Of a stretch of 64,000 nt of DNA, positions 3,452-12,692 are shown in pieces. Positions within the stretch are counted from its first letter, which is position 1. Every line of letters begins with the position of its first letter. Source of the stretch: Propioniferax innocua (GTDB taxonomy: Bacteria > Actinomycetota > Actinomycetes > Propionibacteriales > Propionibacteriaceae); NCBI RefSeq assembly GCF_006716235.1, contig NZ_VFOR01000001.1:124001-188000 (forward strand), in the 5' to 3' direction. Position numbers and translations under genes: made by a program. The notes under the pieces were generated by a model that was given only the letters and a program-made list of their open reading frames with translations, was not told the origin of the DNA and ran no database searches.

Positions 3452-4861
3452 TTGTCTGATTTTGTTTCGCTGGGTGTTCCCCAGCAGTTCTCCGCTGCGC
3501 TCGCTGAGCGTGGTATCACGTCTCCGACGCCGATCCAGCAGGCCACGCTGCCCGATTCTCTCGCGGGTCGCGATGTGCTCGGCCGCGGCCGTACCGGCTC
3601 GGGCAAGACGTACGCGTTTCTGCTGCCGATGGTCGCTCGACTGACCGAGGGGCGTGGTCGACGCGCGCCCAAGCAGCCCAGAGCACTCATCCTTGCCCCG
3701 ACGCGGGAGCTGGCCTCGCAGATCGAGGAGTCCCTCAAGCCGCTCGCGGCGGCTGGGCGGCTCCAAAGCCTCACGATTTTCGGGGGCGTCAACCAGAATC
3801 CGCAGGTGCGTTCCCTCGCCAAGGGCGTTGACGTGCTTGTGGCCTGCCCCGGGCGTCTGCTCGACCTGATGGGGCAGGGCGCGGTGGACCTGTCGGCCGT
3901 CGAGATCACGATCCTCGACGAGGCCGACCACATGGCCGACATGGGCTTCCTTCCCATGGTCAAGCGCATCCTCGACAAGGTTCCGTCCCGTGGACAGCGC
4001 ATGCTGTTCTCCGCGACGCTCGATGGCGACATCAACGTGCTCGTCAAGCGTTACCTGCACAAGCCCGTCATCCATGAGGCTGATTCGGCCGAGTCGCCGG
4101 TCTCGACGATGGATCACCATCTGATCGAGCTTTCGGCGGGGGAGAAGAACGGCGTCATCGCCGGTCTTGCAGCGGCCCCGGGTAAGACCATTTTCTTCAC
4201 CCGCACCAAGCATGGCGCGAAGAAACTCGCCAAGGTCCTCATCAACAAGGGCATCCCCGCGGTCGACCTGCACGGAAACCTCGCCCAGAACGCCCGTACC
4301 CGCAACATGGAGGCCTTCCACTCCGGGCGCGTCTCGACGCTTGTGGCCACCGATATCGCGGCCCGCGGCATCCACGTCGATGACGTGGACCTGGTGGTAC
4401 ACGCCGATCCGCCGGCCGAACACAAGGCCTACCTCCACCGTTCTGGACGCACCGCCCGGGCGGGCAAGGCCGGTACCGTGTTGACGCTGGTCACCCACGA
4501 CCAGCGTGGTGAGGTGCGCGGGCTGATGCGCGCCGCCAAGATCAAGCCGACCGTCTCCGGGGCCGATGCTGCCAGTCTCGAAACGCTCGTTCCCGGAGAA
4601 CGCACCTATGTGAGCGCCGATGAGGCGATGACGATCTCCTACCCGAACCGTCCTGCACAAACTGGACAACAGTCCGGTGGTGGAGCGCGGAAGCCCAGGA
4701 ACGGCGGGCAACGGCGTCCGGAACAGAATCCGCGTGGTCGTTCCGACTCTCGCCGTCGTGGACCGCGAGGAGGTTCTTCGGGCGCTGCGTCGTCGGGCTC
4801 GACGAAGGGGGCCGCAGGATTTTCGCAGGGCGCGGGGCGGCGTCGCACGGGAGTGCGCTGA
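3452..4861 (+). CDS. DEAD-box ATP-dependent RNA helicase
   Basis: A 469-residue RNA helicase of the RhlE/CsdA type that unwinds RNA, usually in ribosome assembly or cold adaptation. Visible motifs in order: Q motif (SPTPIQQATLP), Walker A (GRTGSGKT), APTRELA, the DEAD box (ILDEADHMADMGF), SAT (LFSATLD), and the C-terminal domain motifs ATDIAARGIHV and HRSGRTARAG. A basic, glycine- and arginine-rich tail follows. The TTG at 3452 is chosen because homology to helicases begins there (SDFVSLGVPQQF); the frame continues upstream into the MFS gene but looks non-coding. No clear ribosome site precedes the TTG, and a T-rich run does. The stop codon lies in a tandem repeat. Confidence 0.92.
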   Translation: MSDFVSLGVPQQFSAALAERGITSPTPIQQATLPDSLAGRDVLGRGRTGSGKTYAFLLPMVARLTEGRGRRAPKQPRALILAPTRELASQIEESLKPLAAAGRLQSLTIFGGVNQNPQVRSLAKGVDVLVACPGRLLDLMGQGAVDLSAVEITILDEADHMADMGFLPMVKRILDKVPSRGQRMLFSATLDGDINVLVKRYLHKPVIHEADSAESPVSTMDHHLIELSAGEKNGVIAGLAAAPGKTIFFTRTKHGAKKLAKVLINKGIPAVDLHGNLAQNARTRNMEAFHSGRVSTLVATDIAARGIHVDDVDLVVHADPPAEHKAYLHRSGRTARAGKAGTVLTLVTHDQRGEVRGLMRAAKIKPTVSGADAASLETLVPGERTYVSADEAMTISYPNRPAQTGQQSGGGARKPRNGGQRRPEQNPRGRSDSRRRGPRGGSSGAASSGSTKGAAGFSQGAGRRRTGVR

Positions 4862-4925
4862 TGGATGGTCGCATGGGAGTGCGCTGATCGGTTGGTCGCA
4901 CGGGAGTGCGCTGATGGTTGGTCGC
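4842..4925. repeat. Tandem repeat, 26-27 base unit, starting at helicase 3' end
   Basis: Units begin at 4842, 4868 and 4895, with the start of a fourth at 4921. Each contains GGGAGTGCGCTGAT, so the TGA that ends the helicase (4859-4861) recurs in each later copy. The rest of the 213-base gap up to 5074 shows no gene. Confidence 0.9.
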
Positions 4926-5074
4926 GCTCCTCGACCCCGGTGTCGATTCTGTTCCTTGGCCCGTGACGGGACATGTCATCGATGATGGTGTTCATCGATG
5001 GTGTGTCCCGCAGGGGTGGGGCACGTTCGGCGCGCCTGAACCCGTTTCCCTTCGAGTTTCGAGAGAGTTCTCAC

Positions 5075-8000
5075 GTGACACACAGCACTTCTGGCGGTTT
5101 CTCGGATCCGCTTCTTGCAGGCGATCGTGCACCTTCTCCCCGGACCCTCGTCGACATCTTCTTGGACACCGTTGCGAAGTGCGGTGACTCCCCGGCCTTG
5201 GACGCCGGTGGAACTGTGCTGACCTACGGCGAGTTCCACGAGGAATCCGGTGAGGTCGCCGCGGCCCTCAACGACCTCGGTATCGGACGCGGCGACAAGG
5301 TCGGCGTCCGCGTCCCCTCCGGGACAGCCGACCTGTATGTCTCCATCATGGGCATCCTGCTCGCTGGAGCCGCCTATGTTCCGGTGGACGCAGACGACCC
5401 CGACGAGCGCGCACGCACGGTCTTCTCCGAGGCCGACGTCGCCGCGGTCATCACCGCCGACCGTGTCATCACCCCGCGTGATCCCGATGCGACCGCGCAG
5501 CCGGTCGAACCGGCCCCGCCCGACCTCGGCGACGACTGTTGGGTGATCTTCACCTCCGGCTCCACTGGAAAACCCAAGGGTGTGGCGGTGAATCATCGCA
5601 GCGCGGCTGCGTTCGTCGACGCCGAATCGCGACTGTTCCTGCAGAAGGCCCCGCTGGGTCCGGGCGATCGCGTCATGGCTGGTCTCTCGGTGGCTTTCGA
5701 CGCCAGTTGTGAAGAGGTCTGGCTCGCCTGGGCGCATGGTGCCTGTCTGGTTCCCGCGCCGCGTTCCCTTGTGCGTTCGGGCATGGATCTTGGCCCCTGG
5801 CTCATCGCCAATGACATCACCATCGTCTCCACGGTCCCGACGCTCGTGTCGTTGTGGCCGGCCGAGGCGATGGATCGCGTCCGTCTCCTGATCGTGGGCG
5901 GTGAGGCGTGCCCGCCGGAGCTCGGCGCCCGGTTGGCCAATGAGAACCGTGAGGTGTGGAACACCTACGGCCCCACCGAGGCGACCGTCGTGGCCTGTGC
6001 AGCCCAGCTCACCGGCGAACCGCCGGTTCGGATCGGTCTTCCGCTCGATGGGTGGGATCTCGCGGTCGTCGATGACGAGGGGAACCCGGTGCCGGAGGGG
6101 GAGAGTGGCGAACTCATCATCGGCGGCGTCGGGCTGGCGCGTTATCTGGATCCGGAGAAAGACGCGGAGAAGTACGCGCCCATGCCGACGCTCGGCTGGG
6201 ATCGCGCTTACCGTTCCGGTGACGTGGTGGTCAACGATCCCGAAGGGCTCTTGTTCCGCGGACGCGCCGACGACCAGGTCAAGGTCGGTGGGCGTCGTAT
6301 CGAACTCGGTGAGATCGACGCTGCGCTGCTCGCACTGCCGGGGGTTGCAGGTGCTGCCGCCGCGGTGCGCAAGACCGCCAGCGGCAACTCGCTGATCGTC
6401 GGGTACCTCACTGTTGACGACGAATTCGACCGTGCGGCGAGCCTGGAGCGTCTTCGCGCCGACATGCCGGCGGCCCTCGTGCCGCGCCTGGCTGTGGTTG
6501 ATGACCTCCCCACCCGCACCAGCGGGAAGATCGACCGTGACGCCCTCCCATGGCCCCTGCCCGAGGAAGAGGGCGATGACTCGGCGCTCGGCGAGGTCGG
6601 TTCCTGGGTGGCAGACATCTGGAACGATGTGCTGGGTGCCCGACCCACCGACCCCGATGAAGATTTCTTCGACCTCGGCGGTGGTTCATTGACCGCTGCC
6701 CAGATCATTGCCCGCGTCCGTGAACGCTATGTCAACGCCACTGTCGCCGATGTGTACGAACACACGACGATCGGCGGTTTCGCGGCGTGGCTCGAAGACT
6801 TGGACACGCCTGCGGGGCGCCTCAATGAACAGGTCCACCCGGTTCCCACCAAGACCCAGGCCGGTCAGATCCTGGCCCTTCTGGGTCTGCGGACCATCAG
6901 TGGTCTGCGAGCAGTTTTCTGGATCGGGCTCGGCCTGCGTGCGGTCGACGCGCTTGGCTGGGATCTTCCCGGAAGCGTGATTCCACTCGTGCCGTGGTGG
7001 GCATTGGCGGTGCTCTGGTTCTTCCTGGTGTTCTCGCCCGGGCGTCTGGCACTCAGCGCGCTTGCGGCCCGCATCCTGCTGCGCGGCGTCGAGCCGGGCC
7101 AGTACCCACGTGGTGGACGGATCCACCTGCGGCTGTGGTTGGCCGAACGTTTCGCCGACGAAGCGGGGGCCGGGCTCATCGCCGGCGCCGGAATCGTCCG
7201 TTGGTACGCCAAGCTCCTCGGCTGTCGGGTGGGCAAGGACATCGATCTGCATGCCATGCCGCCGATCACCGGTCACCTCGAACTCGGTGACGGCTGTTCG
7301 GTGGAACCCGAGGTCGACCTTCAGGGTCATTGGATCGACGGCTCCACCCTGCACATCGGCGAGATCGAGATCGGGGCGAACGCCCGCATCGGCGCCCGAT
7401 CCACGTTGTTGGGTGGCTCTCGTGTCGGCAAGGCCGCCGAGATCGCACCCGGCTCCACCGTCTTTGGCAAGGTCAAGGCCGGCGGGCGGTTCTCCGGTTG
7501 CCCCGCCGTGCGGATCGGCGACGCGCGCGGCCCTTGGGAGAAACGGCCCAGGAGTCGTCCCATCTTCACCGCTCTCTATGCCATGACCGGCGTCGGGATC
7601 TCGCTCCTGCCGATCATCGCCATCGTGATCGCCGGTTCCGTGCTCTGGGGGCCGTTGCACCAGACCACGACGCTGGCCTCGGCAGCGACCACGGCTCTGC
7701 TGTGGCTGCCGCTTGCGGGGTTGGCCGGTTATGCGTCGCTGGCGCTGATGATCCTGATCCTGGTGCGGCTGTGGGGGCTCGGACTCGAGGGGGGACACCA
7801 CCCGACACAGGGCGTCCGCGCCCTCCAGGCGTGGGCGACACTCCGACTCATGGATGAGGCCCGCACGTGGCTGTTCCCGCTGTACGCCGGTGCAGCGACC
7901 ACCTGGTGGCTGCGTGCCCTGGGAGCCCACATCGGCAAGGACGCAGAAGCATCCACGGTGTTGATGATCCCCAGCCTGACCAAGGTCGGTGCCGGCGCGT

Positions 8001-8953
8001 TTCTCGCGGACGACACCTTGATCGGTGGCTATGAACTCGGAGGTGGCTGGCTGCGCATCGAACGCGTCAAGATCGGTCGCGGAGCCTTCGTCGGAAACTC
8101 CGGCATGACCGCTCCCGGGCGCAAGGTTCCCAAGGAATCCCTCGTTGCGGTGCTCTCGGCTGCGCCACGCCGCAAGAAGGCCAAAGCGGGATCGTCCTGG
8201 GTGGGCTCTCCGCCGGAGAAACTGCGCCGCACTCATTCCGAGGTCGATGCCTCCCGCACATACGCACCTCCGGCCAGGCTCCGGATCGCACGCGGACTGG
8301 TGGAGACCTGCCGTGTCTTCGCTCTCCTGGCCCATCTGTGCCTGCACCTGCTCAACATCACGGTGCTGGTGTGGCTCGCCACGACGCTCGGTTGGGGCGC
8401 GGCTGCGGTGCTCTCCGGGCTTGTTCTGTTGGTCTGTGGTGCCCTGGCCGTCGGCATCGCCGTCGTGGCGAAGTGGTTGCTCGTCGGACGCTGGAGGAGC
8501 TCGGAGCATCCCCTGTGGTCCAGCTTCGTCTGGCGGGGTGAATTGGCTGACGCCTTCGTCGAAGTGGTCGCGGTTCCCTGGCTGCTGCGTGCGGTGCCGG
8601 GCACGGCACTGCTCGGTCTCTATTTCCGTTCGATGGGTTCGACCGTGGGCCGTGGCGTCTGGTGTGAGACGTATTGGTTGCCCGAGCACGATCTCATCGA
8701 GCTCGGTGACGGCGCCACGATCAACCGGGGCTGCGTCGTGCAGACGCACCTGTTCCACGATCGCGTCTTGGCGATGGACGCTGTTCGGCTCGGCCCGGGC
8801 GCCACGCTGGGTCCGAACTCGGTCATCCTCCCGGCTGCGACGCTCGGCCGCCATGCGACAGTGGGGCCCGGATCGCTCGTGATGCGCGGCGAAGCAGCAC
8901 CGGACAAGACACGGTGGATCGGCAACCCGATCGGCCCGTGGGCCGAGGGCTAG
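5075..8953 (+). CDS. Pls-like single-module non-ribosomal peptide synthetase (poly-amino-acid synthetase candidate)
   Basis: A 1292-residue membrane NRPS without a standard condensation or thioesterase domain. Residues about 30-480 are an adenylation domain: TSGSTGKPKG near 160, FDASCEEVW (A4), NTYGPTEATV (A5), YRSGD (A7) and TSGKIDRDALP (A10). A carrier domain follows with DEDFFDLGGGSL; Ser538 would carry the phosphopantetheine. The C-terminal half (about 600-1292) has three pairs of membrane segments alternating with three left-handed beta-helix-like hexapeptide regions (for example EIGANARIGARSTLLGG), matching the TIGR02353 terminal domain and the architecture and size of epsilon-poly-lysine synthetase. 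GTG at 5075 has GAGAGAG seven bases before it; an ATG at 4973 is in frame but unsupported. A peptidase gene follows closely. Product is inferred, not known. Confidence 0.88.
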   Translation: MTHSTSGGFSDPLLAGDRAPSPRTLVDIFLDTVAKCGDSPALDAGGTVLTYGEFHEESGEVAAALNDLGIGRGDKVGVRVPSGTADLYVSIMGILLAGAAYVPVDADDPDERARTVFSEADVAAVITADRVITPRDPDATAQPVEPAPPDLGDDCWVIFTSGSTGKPKGVAVNHRSAAAFVDAESRLFLQKAPLGPGDRVMAGLSVAFDASCEEVWLAWAHGACLVPAPRSLVRSGMDLGPWLIANDITIVSTVPTLVSLWPAEAMDRVRLLIVGGEACPPELGARLANENREVWNTYGPTEATVVACAAQLTGEPPVRIGLPLDGWDLAVVDDEGNPVPEGESGELIIGGVGLARYLDPEKDAEKYAPMPTLGWDRAYRSGDVVVNDPEGLLFRGRADDQVKVGGRRIELGEIDAALLALPGVAGAAAAVRKTASGNSLIVGYLTVDDEFDRAASLERLRADMPAALVPRLAVVDDLPTRTSGKIDRDALPWPLPEEEGDDSALGEVGSWVADIWNDVLGARPTDPDEDFFDLGGGSLTAAQIIARVRERYVNATVADVYEHTTIGGFAAWLEDLDTPAGRLNEQVHPVPTKTQAGQILALLGLRTISGLRAVFWIGLGLRAVDALGWDLPGSVIPLVPWWALAVLWFFLVFSPGRLALSALAARILLRGVEPGQYPRGGRIHLRLWLAERFADEAGAGLIAGAGIVRWYAKLLGCRVGKDIDLHAMPPITGHLELGDGCSVEPEVDLQGHWIDGSTLHIGEIEIGANARIGARSTLLGGSRVGKAAEIAPGSTVFGKVKAGGRFSGCPAVRIGDARGPWEKRPRSRPIFTALYAMTGVGISLLPIIAIVIAGSVLWGPLHQTTTLASAATTALLWLPLAGLAGYASLALMILILVRLWGLGLEGGHHPTQGVRALQAWATLRLMDEARTWLFPLYAGAATTWWLRALGAHIGKDAEASTVLMIPSLTKVGAGAFLADDTLIGGYELGGGWLRIERVKIGRGAFVGNSGMTAPGRKVPKESLVAVLSAAPRRKKAKAGSSWVGSPPEKLRRTHSEVDASRTYAPPARLRIARGLVETCRVFALLAHLCLHLLNITVLVWLATTLGWGAAAVLSGLVLLVCGALAVGIAVVAKWLLVGRWRSSEHPLWSSFVWRGELADAFVEVVAVPWLLRAVPGTALLGLYFRSMGSTVGRGVWCETYWLPEHDLIELGDGATINRGCVVQTHLFHDRVLAMDAVRLGPGATLGPNSVILPAATLGRHATVGPGSLVMRGEAAPDKTRWIGNPIGPWAEG

Positions 8954-9003
8954 GGTGGAGCGTTTGCCTTTTCCGCCACTTACTGACTCTGATTGGAGTG
9001 CGT

Positions 9004-10320
9004 ATGCACCATCCCGACCCGTATCTGCACGGGCACGGTGACACCCGTTATCGGGTGTCACATTACGAGCTGGACCTTACCTACAAGGTCGCCACGAATC
9101 GGCTCGACGAACGGGCGCAGTTGCATGTGGAGATCGTCGAGCCGACGCCGCGCATCGACGTGGATCTCCGTGGCCTGCATGTGGGCAAAGTGCTCCTGGA
9201 CGGTCGCCCCACCCGTTATCGACGCAAGGCGAACTGCGTCACCGTCGAGGTCGGACGCCGTGAACCGGGGGAGAGGTTCGTCTTGGACCTCCGCGTCTCC
9301 GGCAAACCGGGGCCAATCCCCGGTGCCCATGGTGAAGCCGGCTGGGAGGAGCTCAGCGATGGGTCCATGGTGGGATCGCAACCCCAGGGTGCCCCGAGCT
9401 GGTTTCCCTGCAATGACGATGCCGCAGACAAGGCCACCTATCGGATCACGGTGACAGCCGACGCCGACTATCACGTCATCGCCAACGGGACGCGGACCGA
9501 GTGCACTCGCGTCGGCGGCAACAACCGGTGGACCTATGAGATGAGGCGACCCATGTCTCCGTATCTCGCGACGGTGCAGATCGGTGACTACGTCGAGGAC
9601 GAACGCAGCGCCGGTGTACCGGTGTCGATCGTGCACCCCGGTGGGCTCGACGTGGGGGAGGGAACCTCGTTCGAGTACCAGGGCGCGATGGTGGACTTCT
9701 TCAGCGAGTGTTTCGGCCCCTACCCTTTCGCGGAGTATCGGGCCGTCGTCGTGGAGGATGATCTGGAGATCCCTCTGGAGGCCCAGGGGCTGAGCACGTT
9801 CGGCAGAAATTTCGTTCCCCCGGCTTGGGAGAATGAACGACTCGTGGCGCATGAACTGGCACATCAGTGGTTCGGCAATCTCGTCACCGGGCAGCACCTG
9901 GCCGATATCTGGCTTCATGAGGGCTTCGCCTGCTACAGCGAATGGCTCTGGTCCGACCATCGCCGTCATTGGTGTGAGAGCGAGACCGTGCAGGAACAGG
10001 CTGCCCGCCACCACGCCGGACTGCCGAAGGATCTCGGAGACGTGACCCTTGCTGATCCCGGCATGGATGCCATGTTCGACGACTGGGTGTACAAGCGTGG
10101 GGCTCTCACCCTGCATGCGGTGCGGTCGATCACCGGTGATGAGGTGTTCTTCGGGATGCTTCGTGAGTGGACGCGGCTGCAGGCCGACAGCGCCGTCACC
10201 ACTGGGCAGTTCATCGAACACTGCCGAACTTCCTCGGGTGAACTCGGCGATCAGGTCGTCGAGACGCTCCATGCCTGGCTCCACGAGCCCGCTCTTCCTG
10301 ATCTGCCGGTCCTGAGCTGA
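9004..10320 (+). CDS. M1-family zinc metallopeptidase (aminopeptidase)
   Basis: A 438-residue zinc peptidase that would remove N-terminal residues from peptides. The zinc site is HELAH at residues 283-287 with the third ligand Glu306 in LHEGFACYSEW, exactly the HEXXH-18-E spacing of M1 enzymes. In place of the usual GAMEN exopeptidase loop there is LEIPLEAQGLSTFG, as in some short actinobacterial members. It lacks the long C-terminal helical domain, so it is about half the length of aminopeptidase N. No signal peptide is seen, so it is probably cytoplasmic. The ATG at 9004, 50 bases after the NRPS stop, has GGAGTGCGT upstream. Its position suggests co-transcription with the Pls-like gene and perhaps turnover of its product. 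Confidence 0.9.
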   Translation: MHHPDPYLHGHGDTRYRVSHYELDLTYKVATNRLDERAQLHVEIVEPTPRIDVDLRGLHVGKVLLDGRPTRYRRKANCVTVEVGRREPGERFVLDLRVSGKPGPIPGAHGEAGWEELSDGSMVGSQPQGAPSWFPCNDDAADKATYRITVTADADYHVIANGTRTECTRVGGNNRWTYEMRRPMSPYLATVQIGDYVEDERSAGVPVSIVHPGGLDVGEGTSFEYQGAMVDFFSECFGPYPFAEYRAVVVEDDLEIPLEAQGLSTFGRNFVPPAWENERLVAHELAHQWFGNLVTGQHLADIWLHEGFACYSEWLWSDHRRHWCESETVQEQAARHHAGLPKDLGDVTLADPGMDAMFDDWVYKRGALTLHAVRSITGDEVFFGMLREWTRLQADSAVTTGQFIEHCRTSSGELGDQVVETLHAWLHEPALPDLPVLS

Positions 10321-10396: not shown

Positions 10397-11467
10397 ATGC
10401 GCCGTTCCCCGAGCAGTCTCCTCGTCGGTGGTCTTCGTCGCGTGGCTCGTGCGCTGGCCTCGCCACGTGACCCGGGCGACTATCTCGACATGTTCAGTCC
10501 GCTGCGCCCGGGAGCCGCGCTCCGAGGGCGGATCACCTCGATCGTGCGCGAGCCGACCGGGGCGGTCACCGTCACCATCCGGCCAGGAAAAGACTGGGCG
10601 GGGCACCGGCCCGGGCAGTACGTGCGAGTGGGAATCCAGGTGGACGGAGTACGCCAATGGCGTGCCTACTCCATCACCAGTCCCGGCGCCGAGCGGACGC
10701 TCACCATCACGGTCAAGCCCGTGGAGGGGGGCGTGGTGAGCAACCACCTCGGCACCCGTGCTCGTGTGGGCGAGTTGGTCAGTCTCGAGCAGGCGGCAGG
10801 GGAGTTCGTCCTCCCCGACGCCGTGCCGCCCAAACTGTTGTTCGTGGCGGCCGGTTCGGGCATCACCCCCATCATGGGAATGTTGCGCGGGCATGCCGAT
10901 GCGCTGACCGATGTGGTGATGATCCACAGTTCGGCGTCCGAGCGGGCTGCGTTGTTCGGCCCGGAGTTGCGCGTTCTGGGTGAGGACCCCCGTGTCCGAC
11001 TGATCGAACGGCACACCGATACCCAGGAGCGTCTGGGGTTCGACGAACTTGACGAACTCGTTCCGGACTGGACCGATCGGCAGGCGTGGGTGTGTGGCCC
11101 GGCAGCCATGCTCGATGAAGCCGAGGAGCATTGGGCTGAGGCCGGGATCGAGGACCGACTCCACATCGAACGTTTTCGCCCGGTCATCCTCGGCGACCCC
11201 GAGGATGGGGGCGAGGTGACCTTCCGCGTGAGTGGGCGCACCGTCGACGCTCCCGGAGACCGTCCCCTGCTGGACGTCGGGGAGGAGTCCCACGTGCTCA
11301 TGCCCTCCGGGTGTCGTATGGGGATCTGCTTCGGCTGTGTGGGGTCCCTGGCGGAGGGGACGGTCCGTCACCTGCGCACCGGTGAACTCATCGAGACGAC
11401 CGAGGATCCGGTTCAAATTCAGACCTGCATCACAGCGGCTGCAGGCCGCTGCGTCATCGATCTCTGA
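10397..11467 (+). CDS. Ferredoxin-type oxidoreductase, electron donor to fatty acid desaturase
   Basis: A 356-residue flavoprotein that should pass electrons from NAD(P)H through FAD to a 2Fe-2S centre. The order is: short N-terminal extension, FAD domain (RAYSITS near residue 90), NAD(P) domain (FVAAGSGITPIMGML), and a C-terminal plant-type ferredoxin domain with cysteines spaced as CRMGICFGC plus a distal cysteine in IQTCITAA. It is followed after 28 bases by a desaturase, the same pairing known for mycobacterial DesA3 and its reductase Rv3230c. A palindromic operator lies just upstream. The ATG at 10397 has no clear ribosome site, so a leaderless or near-leaderless transcript is possible. 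Confidence 0.9.
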   Translation: MRRSPSSLLVGGLRRVARALASPRDPGDYLDMFSPLRPGAALRGRITSIVREPTGAVTVTIRPGKDWAGHRPGQYVRVGIQVDGVRQWRAYSITSPGAERTLTITVKPVEGGVVSNHLGTRARVGELVSLEQAAGEFVLPDAVPPKLLFVAAGSGITPIMGMLRGHADALTDVVMIHSSASERAALFGPELRVLGEDPRVRLIERHTDTQERLGFDELDELVPDWTDRQAWVCGPAAMLDEAEEHWAEAGIEDRLHIERFRPVILGDPEDGGEVTFRVSGRTVDAPGDRPLLDVGEESHVLMPSGCRMGICFGCVGSLAEGTVRHLRTGELIETTEDPVQIQTCITAAAGRCVIDL

Positions 11468-11495
11468 CCGCCCTCACAGAACAGGACGCTGACAC

Positions 11496-12692
11496 ATGAC
11501 CCAGACCATCGCAGCATCGGCCACGTCCGGAACCACGACGACTTCACACAACCTCACCCCGGAGCAGATCGAGGAGCTCGGGCGTGAGCTAGATGAGATC
11601 CGTGACGACATCATGAGCACTCTCGGCGCACGGGACGCGGCCTACATCCGCACCGTGATAACCGTTCAGCGGGCCATCGAGCTGAGCAGCCGTGCTGTCC
11701 TGCTGTTCTCCAGGGTCCCCGCTGCATGGGTGCTGGGAACCGCCGGTCTCGCCGTGGCCAAGACGCTGGAGAACATGGAAATCGGGCACAACATCCTCCA
11801 CGGGCAGTGGGACTGGATGCGGGACCCGAAGATCCACTCCAGCACCTGGGAGTGGGATGCCATCTCCCCGGCAAAGCAGTGGCAGTACACCCACAACGAA
11901 CTGCATCACACGTACACCAACGTCATCGGACGTGACAATGACTTGGGCTACGGCATCATGCGCGTCTCCGAGGACCAGCCGTGGACGCTGTACTCGCTGA
12001 TCCAGGCACCGGTGAATCTGCTCAACGCCGCGTTCTTCGAGTACGGCATCGCGCTGTACGACATGGAGGCGCTTGAGTACGTCGAGGGGCGCGTCGAGAA
12101 GGACGTGTTCGTCGGTAAGGCGAAGGAGGCCGCCCGCAAGCTGGGGCGTCAGGTGGCGAAGGATTACATCATCCATCCGCTCGTCTCCGGCCCGAATGCG
12201 CTCTCGACGCTGACGGCGACGTTCACCGCCAACATGTTGCGGAACCTCTGGACCCATTCGGTCATCATCTGTGGGCATTTCCCCGAGGGCGTCGAGACCT
12301 TCGAGACCGATTCGATCGAGGGGGAGACTCGAGGTGGCTGGTATCTGCGTCAGATGCTCGGCTCGGCCAATATCTCGGGGCCGTATCTGATGCACGTGAT
12401 GACGGGCAATCTGTCGTTCCAGATCGAGCATCATCTGTTCCCCGACATGCCCTCCAACCGTTATGCGGAGGCCGCGCCCCGCGTCCGGGAAGTGTTCGAT
12501 CGGTACGGGCTGCGCTATGTCTCGGGCCCGCTTCACAAGCAGCTCGGGTCGGCCTGGTGGAAGATCATCCGACTGTCGGCTCCGAACCACGACCCGGACC
12601 GAACCCGACTGGAGACGATCACCAACGCGGTGCGCGAATCGGTGCGAGGTCTTGGGGGACGGTTGCAGTCGATGCTGGGACGTGGGCGCTGA
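11496..12692 (+). CDS. Membrane fatty acid (acyl-CoA) desaturase
   Basis: A 398-residue di-iron desaturase that introduces a double bond into an acyl chain. The three histidine boxes are present: HNILH near residue 88, HNELHH near 132 and QIEHH near 309. Hydrophobic segments lie around residues 60-90 and 230-260. Two of the spacings resemble actinobacterial stearoyl-CoA delta-9 desaturases, so unsaturated membrane lipid synthesis is the likely role, with the upstream reductase as its donor. The protein shares the palindrome-controlled operon. The regiospecificity cannot be read from the sequence. Confidence 0.9.
   Translation: MTQTIAASATSGTTTTSHNLTPEQIEELGRELDEIRDDIMSTLGARDAAYIRTVITVQRAIELSSRAVLLFSRVPAAWVLGTAGLAVAKTLENMEIGHNILHGQWDWMRDPKIHSSTWEWDAISPAKQWQYTHNELHHTYTNVIGRDNDLGYGIMRVSEDQPWTLYSLIQAPVNLLNAAFFEYGIALYDMEALEYVEGRVEKDVFVGKAKEAARKLGRQVAKDYIIHPLVSGPNALSTLTATFTANMLRNLWTHSVIICGHFPEGVETFETDSIEGETRGGWYLRQMLGSANISGPYLMHVMTGNLSFQIEHHLFPDMPSNRYAEAAPRVREVFDRYGLRYVSGPLHKQLGSAWWKIIRLSAPNHDPDRTRLETITNAVRESVRGLGGRLQSMLGRGR

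Follow-up and report, generated by a model that had tools for sequence, protein, structure and literature searches.

A probable epsilon-polylysine operon with a linked M1 peptidase gene in Propioniferax innocua

Two adjacent genes in the window

The window analysed here, a 64,000-nucleotide stretch of Propioniferax innocua DNA, carries on its forward strand a gene (pls) for a homologue of epsilon-poly-L-lysine synthetase (Pls), followed by a gene for a two-domain M1 zinc peptidase, a putative homologue of PldII. Their coordinates, and those of the domains and residues discussed below, are collected in Table 1. An in-frame ATG upstream, at 4973, would lengthen the pls frame to 1326 residues. 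Several homologues among the best 80 of 582 confirmed stretches have matches that begin at residue 1 or 2 of the 1292-residue form, and the shorter frame is preferred for this reason.

Table 1. Features of the pls-peptidase locus (window coordinates)
Feature	Position	Strand	Details
pls, epsilon-poly-L-lysine synthetase homologue	5075..8953	+	1292 aa, GTG start
Adenylation domain	5129..6565	+	residues 19-497; from alignment to 7wew and pocket-code table
Pocket residues	in adenylation domain		209, 210, 213, 252, 273, 275, 297, 305, 306, 485 = DAESIGTVVK; placed by motif
Carrier domain	6605..6793	+	residues 511-573; attachment Ser538
Pls/PosA terminal domain	6866..8932	+	residues 598-1286; three membrane-helix pairs, three hexapeptide-type domains
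Gap between pls and peptidase	8954..9003	+	50 nt; ribosome-binding-like GGAG at 8995-8998
putative pldII homologue, two-domain M1 zinc peptidase	9004..10320	+	438 aa; ATG at 9004, stop at 10318-10320
Conserved peptidase residues			HExxH 283-287, Glu306, Glu259, Tyr363

Pfam matches to the synthetase at E ≤ 0.001 comprise an AMP-binding domain (residues 32-356), the carrier domain (511-573) and hexapeptide matches. No further family reached this threshold, and the protein thus has no condensation or thioesterase domain. The NCBIfam model of the Pls/PosA terminal domain scores 660 bits over residues 598-1286 against a cut-off of 423, and the attachment serine of the carrier domain is present in all 118 aligned loci. 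Hydropathy analysis gave six main peaks arranged as three pairs, near residues 599-617/635-653, 839-857/879-897 and 1081-1099/1112-1130; the scan is crude and also flagged overlapping windows as well as 86-104, 413-431 and 1164-1182, the first two of which lie in the adenylation domain, which is soluble. Residues 588-1292 were modelled with AlphaFold2 from 38 aligned sequences (pLDDT 82, pTM 0.86); the model predicts three units, in each of which a group of long helices precedes a strand-rich domain, with parts of the strand-rich domains below a pLDDT of 70. When this model was compared with the PDB using Foldseek, the best matches were to hexapeptide acyltransferases (serine and maltose acetyltransferases), and these were weak and partial (best E 5e-4).

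The Pls architecture consists of adenylation, carrier and terminal domains in this order, the last comprising three membrane pairs and a tandem of three soluble domains, and it lacks condensation and thioesterase domains. The initial annotation, drawn from the DNA letters, had described just this organization in a protein of 1292 residues, and Pfam, NCBIfam, hydropathy and AlphaFold2 agree with it, including on the missing condensation and thioesterase domains. A conventional single-module NRPS or amide synthetase was considered and rejected, given that no condensation, thioesterase or reductase family was found at E ≤ 0.001 and that a full Pls terminal domain is present.

The second gene begins 50 nt after the pls stop, as the initial annotation had stated, and its 438-residue product matches Peptidase_M1 of Pfam with 91 bits. 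Chance can be dismissed as a source of the domain scores of the two genes. His283, His287, Glu306, Glu284, Glu259 and Tyr363 do not vary across an alignment (A2) of 36 peptidase sequences; of 36 listed loci it used 35, L098 having been removed manually, as the start selected for it made the frame too long. We take His283, His287 and Glu306 to be the M1 zinc ligands, Glu284 and Glu259 the catalytic and amino-binding glutamates, and Tyr363 the catalytic tyrosine. Among solved structures the window peptidase is closest to a two-domain M1 peptidase from Deinococcus radiodurans, with which it shares about 31% identity; the pls-linked peptidases of four other loci (L101-L104) are 43-44% identical to it. 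Two other M1 matches are encoded in the genome, both in long frames (828 and 902 aa).

Three tandem copies of a 22-base motif, spaced at 26-27 bases, lie at 4841-4915, a span that runs from the end of the preceding DEAD-box helicase gene into the interval ahead of pls. The motif occurs nowhere else in the genome when up to 2 mismatches are allowed. A promoter and terminator scan showed no excess over shuffled sequences.

Substrate pocket and product

Among solved structures, the adenylation domain is closest to Streptomyces Pls (7wew, 618 bits; the next scores 389), which, together with the terminal-domain score, bears out the assignment in the initial annotation to the epsilon-poly-lysine synthetase architecture. 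All ten residues of the pocket equal those of 7wew in an alignment read by eye, and every one of the 110 loci whose synthetase exceeds 50% identity to the window protein has the same pocket. These 110 lysine-code loci represent 108 distinct ones, with the window's own locus (L016) counted among them. By pairwise identity the window protein falls with the lysine-code enzymes, being 50-79% identical to these loci and 24-34% identical to 13 divergent family members.

The second pocket position helps to tell substrates apart, alanine having been proposed to indicate lysine, methionine ornithine, and phenylalanine diaminopropionate or diaminobutyrate (PMC10522769). In the window protein this position is occupied by Ala210 and not by the methionine of PosA-type enzymes. 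Phenylalanine occurs there, in a fully readable code of the same type, in four divergent members (L118, L119, L122 and L123). In two others (L105 and L115) the code differs, and its letters depend on how the sequences are aligned; in seven of the 13 the code is not fully readable in the frame taken. L117 and L120, without a match at 1e-20 in the first family comparison, were included at 1e-5 in the comparison of the 13 divergent members. A literature search did not find the code DAESIGTVVK; PMC8117764 gives its codes in a figure.

No match to KamA-type lysine 2,3-aminomutase (TIGR00238) was found in the genome, and poly-beta-lysine is therefore an unlikely product; an epsilon-poly-beta-lysine synthetase was rejected as a candidate on this ground. 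Phosphopantetheinyl transferase has two matches in the genome, in frames of 172 and 238 aa. A Pls/PosA-type synthetase might nonetheless act on another diamino acid (ornithine, diaminobutyrate, diaminopropionate or beta-lysine) and make a different cationic homopolymer, since the wider family includes all of these substrates within one conserved architecture (PMC10522769). We consider this very unlikely here: the pocket is identical to that of Streptomyces Pls, its second residue is neither methionine nor phenylalanine, the four phenylalanine-type relatives all lack a comparable peptidase nearby, and the aminomutase is missing from the genome's matches. By analogy with characterised synthetases, the product of pls is most likely epsilon-poly-L-lysine. 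The earlier proposal of a homopoly-amino-acid maker is backed by comparisons and literature, which would narrow it to this polymer.

The terminal domain also appears in other proteins. Two genomes of one genus encode proteins of 1112 and 1100 aa (L117:3281-6616, reverse strand, and L125:3985-7284, forward strand) with an N-terminal Pls/PosA-like terminal domain that scores below the cut-off (342 and 327 bits). Pfam detects no adenylation or carrier domain in either, the C-terminal part of the L117 protein gives only a faint phosphopantetheinyl-transferase hint (E 0.25), and at both loci the next gene encodes a G5-domain protein. This is an unusual use of a polymer-synthetase domain.

Linkage and co-occurrence of synthetase and peptidase

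A peptidase gene lies downstream of pls on the same strand in 107 of the 108 distinct lysine-code loci, the window included. It follows directly in 99 of the 108, with a start between -30 and +170 nt from the pls stop, and lies farther downstream (304-3938 nt) in 8. The one locus with no peptidase within 6 kb, from Gordonia jacobaea (L097), belongs to a genome with a peptidase homologue elsewhere (46% identical, 381 bits). The peptidase frame overlaps the pls stop in 59 (latest start) to 80 (earliest start) of the 99 adjacent loci; starts were chosen by rule, and for the window gene, to which the rule gives an overlapping start, the ATG at 9004 is preferred instead. Eleven lysine-code loci fetched later comprise ten with an adjacent peptidase and one without, and are not summed with the 108, at least five of them being already in the earlier set. 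One genome encodes two lysine-code synthetases: one copy is followed by the peptidase, and the second (L126:4041-7922, reverse strand), 50% identical to the window protein, has none within 4 kb. None of the 13 divergent family members has a comparable peptidase nearby, L120 being cut at a contig end and L123 having a weak 55-bit match 3.4 kb away.

Some details of gene arrangement were noted along the way. Loci L071, L073, L077, L080, L084, L090, L093 and L113 have 0.3-4 kb between pls and the peptidase gene, and several of these widely spaced loci contain a small acetyltransferase-like or DoxX-like frame in between, as judged by eye. L126 adjoins a mannosyltransferase-like gene.

When nine flanking window genes were sought beside pls in 120 loci, the only match was one partial desaturase hit (L038); a tenth gene, homoserine acyltransferase-like, had none. 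Of these 120 loci, 21 are shorter than 6 kb and show little flank. A larger gene cluster was rejected because the DEAD-box helicase, MFS, TetR and transporter permease genes, along with the flavin reductase, desaturase (bar the L038 hit), LigT, LysR and SLAC1 genes, were not found beside pls elsewhere. The tandem flavin/iron-sulphur reductase and fatty acid desaturase genes at 10397-12692 are likely to form a desaturase system that is not conserved with pls.

Co-occurrence was measured in 57 genomes (P. innocua itself and 56 relatives) and in 296 genomes drawn across the phylum, two sets that share at least G000 and G034. In the relatives set, the Pls/PosA cut-off is exceeded in 20 of 57 genomes, of which G011 and G050 have phenylalanine-type codes. 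Peptidase matches of at least 370 bits occur in each of the remaining 18 and in no other genome of the set, the next best match scoring 217. Across the phylum, a terminal domain above the cut-off is encoded in 14 of 296 genomes. All 14 carry the lysine code, and they are also the only ones whose peptidase match reaches at least 341 bits; the next (243 bits) falls in a genome that lacks pls. With lysine-code pls and peptidase matches from 341 bits up, both genes are thus present in 18 and absent from 39 of the 57 genomes, and the figures for the phylum set are 14 and 282 of 296. M1 homologues of lower score are common; 22 of 57 and 36 of 296 genomes give at least one match at E ≤ 1e-40. In an order-wide search the Pls/PosA cut-off was exceeded in 109 of 293 genomes, and 16 places were fetched as loci. 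Every lysine-code pls genome that was searched for the peptidase has a close homologue, and the restriction of close homologues to such genomes in the two sets provides independent genomic support for the peptidase as part of the system.

These data bear on whether the enzyme is a housekeeping aminopeptidase that lies beside pls by chance. It has the M1 fold and the catalytic residues of general aminopeptidases, the closest solved structure is that of a Deinococcus M1 enzyme, determined with various amino acids as ligands, and lower-scoring M1 homologues (at most 217 and 243 bits in the two sets) are present in genomes with and without pls. Yet the genome has two other M1 matches in its longer frames, close homologues of the window enzyme are confined to lysine-code pls genomes, and the peptidase stays next to pls when the other neighbours tested do not. 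A chance neighbour is, in our judgment, extremely improbable.

Role of the peptidase and comparison with known systems

Directly observed gene structure, domains, pocket identity, linkage and co-occurrence lead us, with high confidence, to read the two genes as a pls-pldII operon in which Pls would make secreted epsilon-poly-L-lysine and the adjoining M1 peptidase would degrade the polymer and so protect the producer. Characterised relatives are our guide to substrate, polymerisation and secretion and to the substrate and role of the peptidase. On their pattern, Pls would activate L-lysine with ATP and load it onto the carrier domain at Ser538; the three hexapeptide-type domains attached to the membrane would then join lysines one by one through the side-chain amine. 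The chain, an epsilon-poly-L-lysine a few tens of residues long, would be secreted, and the peptidase encoded alongside would break it down, protecting the producer.

Degradation of epsilon-poly-L-lysine for self-protection is the most likely role of the peptidase by analogy with Streptomyces albulus, where pldII follows pls and its repression lowered self-tolerance and gave longer chains, of more than 40 residues (PMC9223678). PldII of S. albulus is presumably itself an M1 enzyme, judging by the shared gene context. The longer chains could also mean that the main task of the peptidase is to trim chains and so set product size, and product trimming had been suggested in the initial annotation. 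We think this unlikely, since inactivation of both Pld and PldII in Streptomyces is reported to have left production and degree of polymerisation unchanged (Yamanaka 2010, cited in PMC8506220) and Pls alone yields a spread of chain lengths in vitro (cited in PMC8506220). Action of the peptidase on the product is supported by linkage, co-occurrence and literature, and trimming, on which reports conflict, is the weaker reading.

A review places PldII on the cell surface, at the outer face of the membrane (PMC9205021). By crude hydropathy, with starts chosen by rule, no obvious export signal was seen in the window peptidase or its homologues (109 peptidase homologues; matches below 180 bits were left out, and L027 and L075 run off their contigs). 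In the first 60 residues of these 109, mean hydropathy over 18 residues reached at most 1.44, a value that comes from the window's own peptidase when read from an alternative early start; read from the ATG at 9004, it has no 19-residue stretch above 0.84. To judge from sequence, the absent signal would fit a cytoplasmic peptidase better than an exported one. It is conceivable, though we put it forward only tentatively and consider it rather unlikely, that PldII-type peptidases are cytoplasmic guards that remove polylysine retained on, or leaked back to, the inner face of the membrane, rather than surface enzymes, and that they are an obligatory partner of lysine-specific Pls and not of synthetases of other polymers. 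Such a role would explain the close homologue in every lysine-code pls genome searched, the lower self-tolerance on loss and the disputed effect on chain length.

The two adjacent genes are very probably the known operon for epsilon-polylysine, an antimicrobial polymer. The initial annotation saw a coherent two-gene system, which it is, but the pair is not a new one, having already been published for Streptomyces and Corynebacterium (PMC8117764, PMC9223678). Both the architecture and the operon were described for Corynebacterium variabile and Streptomyces by Jiang et al. (2021), who also listed homologues in Brevibacterium, Arthrobacter, Micrococcus, Dermacoccus and others (PMC8117764). By that account the C. 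variabile pls, in the same peptidase context, yielded epsilon-polylysine of 26-35 residues in S. coelicolor; none was produced by cultures of C. variabile itself or by C. glutamicum carrying the gene. Our literature searches on polylysine with Kytococcus returned only a review on topical formulations, and those pairing a polylysine synthetase with an M1 peptidase, or with an adjacent aminopeptidase and NRPS, returned nothing. The pair is known from related soil, cheese and skin bacteria, and the window holds a real, coherent and ordinary further member of the published operon. By itself it leaves the known picture unchanged; it is a potential source of an enzyme for a food preservative.

Among known enzymes, the two-domain M1 peptidase of D. 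radiodurans (6a8z, 6ifg) shares its fold (TM 0.87) and catalytic residues with the window peptidase at the identity given above. We know of no link between the Deinococcus enzyme and a synthetase. PosA, the delta-poly-L-ornithine synthetase of Acinetobacter baumannii, has adenylation, carrier and membrane terminal domains in common with the window protein; it differs in having methionine at pocket position 2 and a reported single-gene operon (PMC10522769), whereas the window has alanine and a peptidase gene. The pls-pldII genes of S. albulus are like those of the window in domain order, pocket code (7wew) and the metallopeptidase gene after pls, but are reported to be translationally coupled (PMC9223678), whereas the window genes lie 50 nt apart. 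With the operons of C. variabile and other coryneform bacteria (PMC8117764) the window shares architecture and gene context. The C. variabile product was proven by heterologous expression. The lineage of the window protein differs: its nearest named relatives are from Kytococcus aerolatus (79%) and Kocuria (77-78%), among the best 80 of 582 confirmed stretches, a selection whose counts lean to near relatives; the scan may omit the own genome and very near ones. With the window genes, the bacteria known to carry the polylysine operon come to include a lineage close to Kytococcus and Kocuria.
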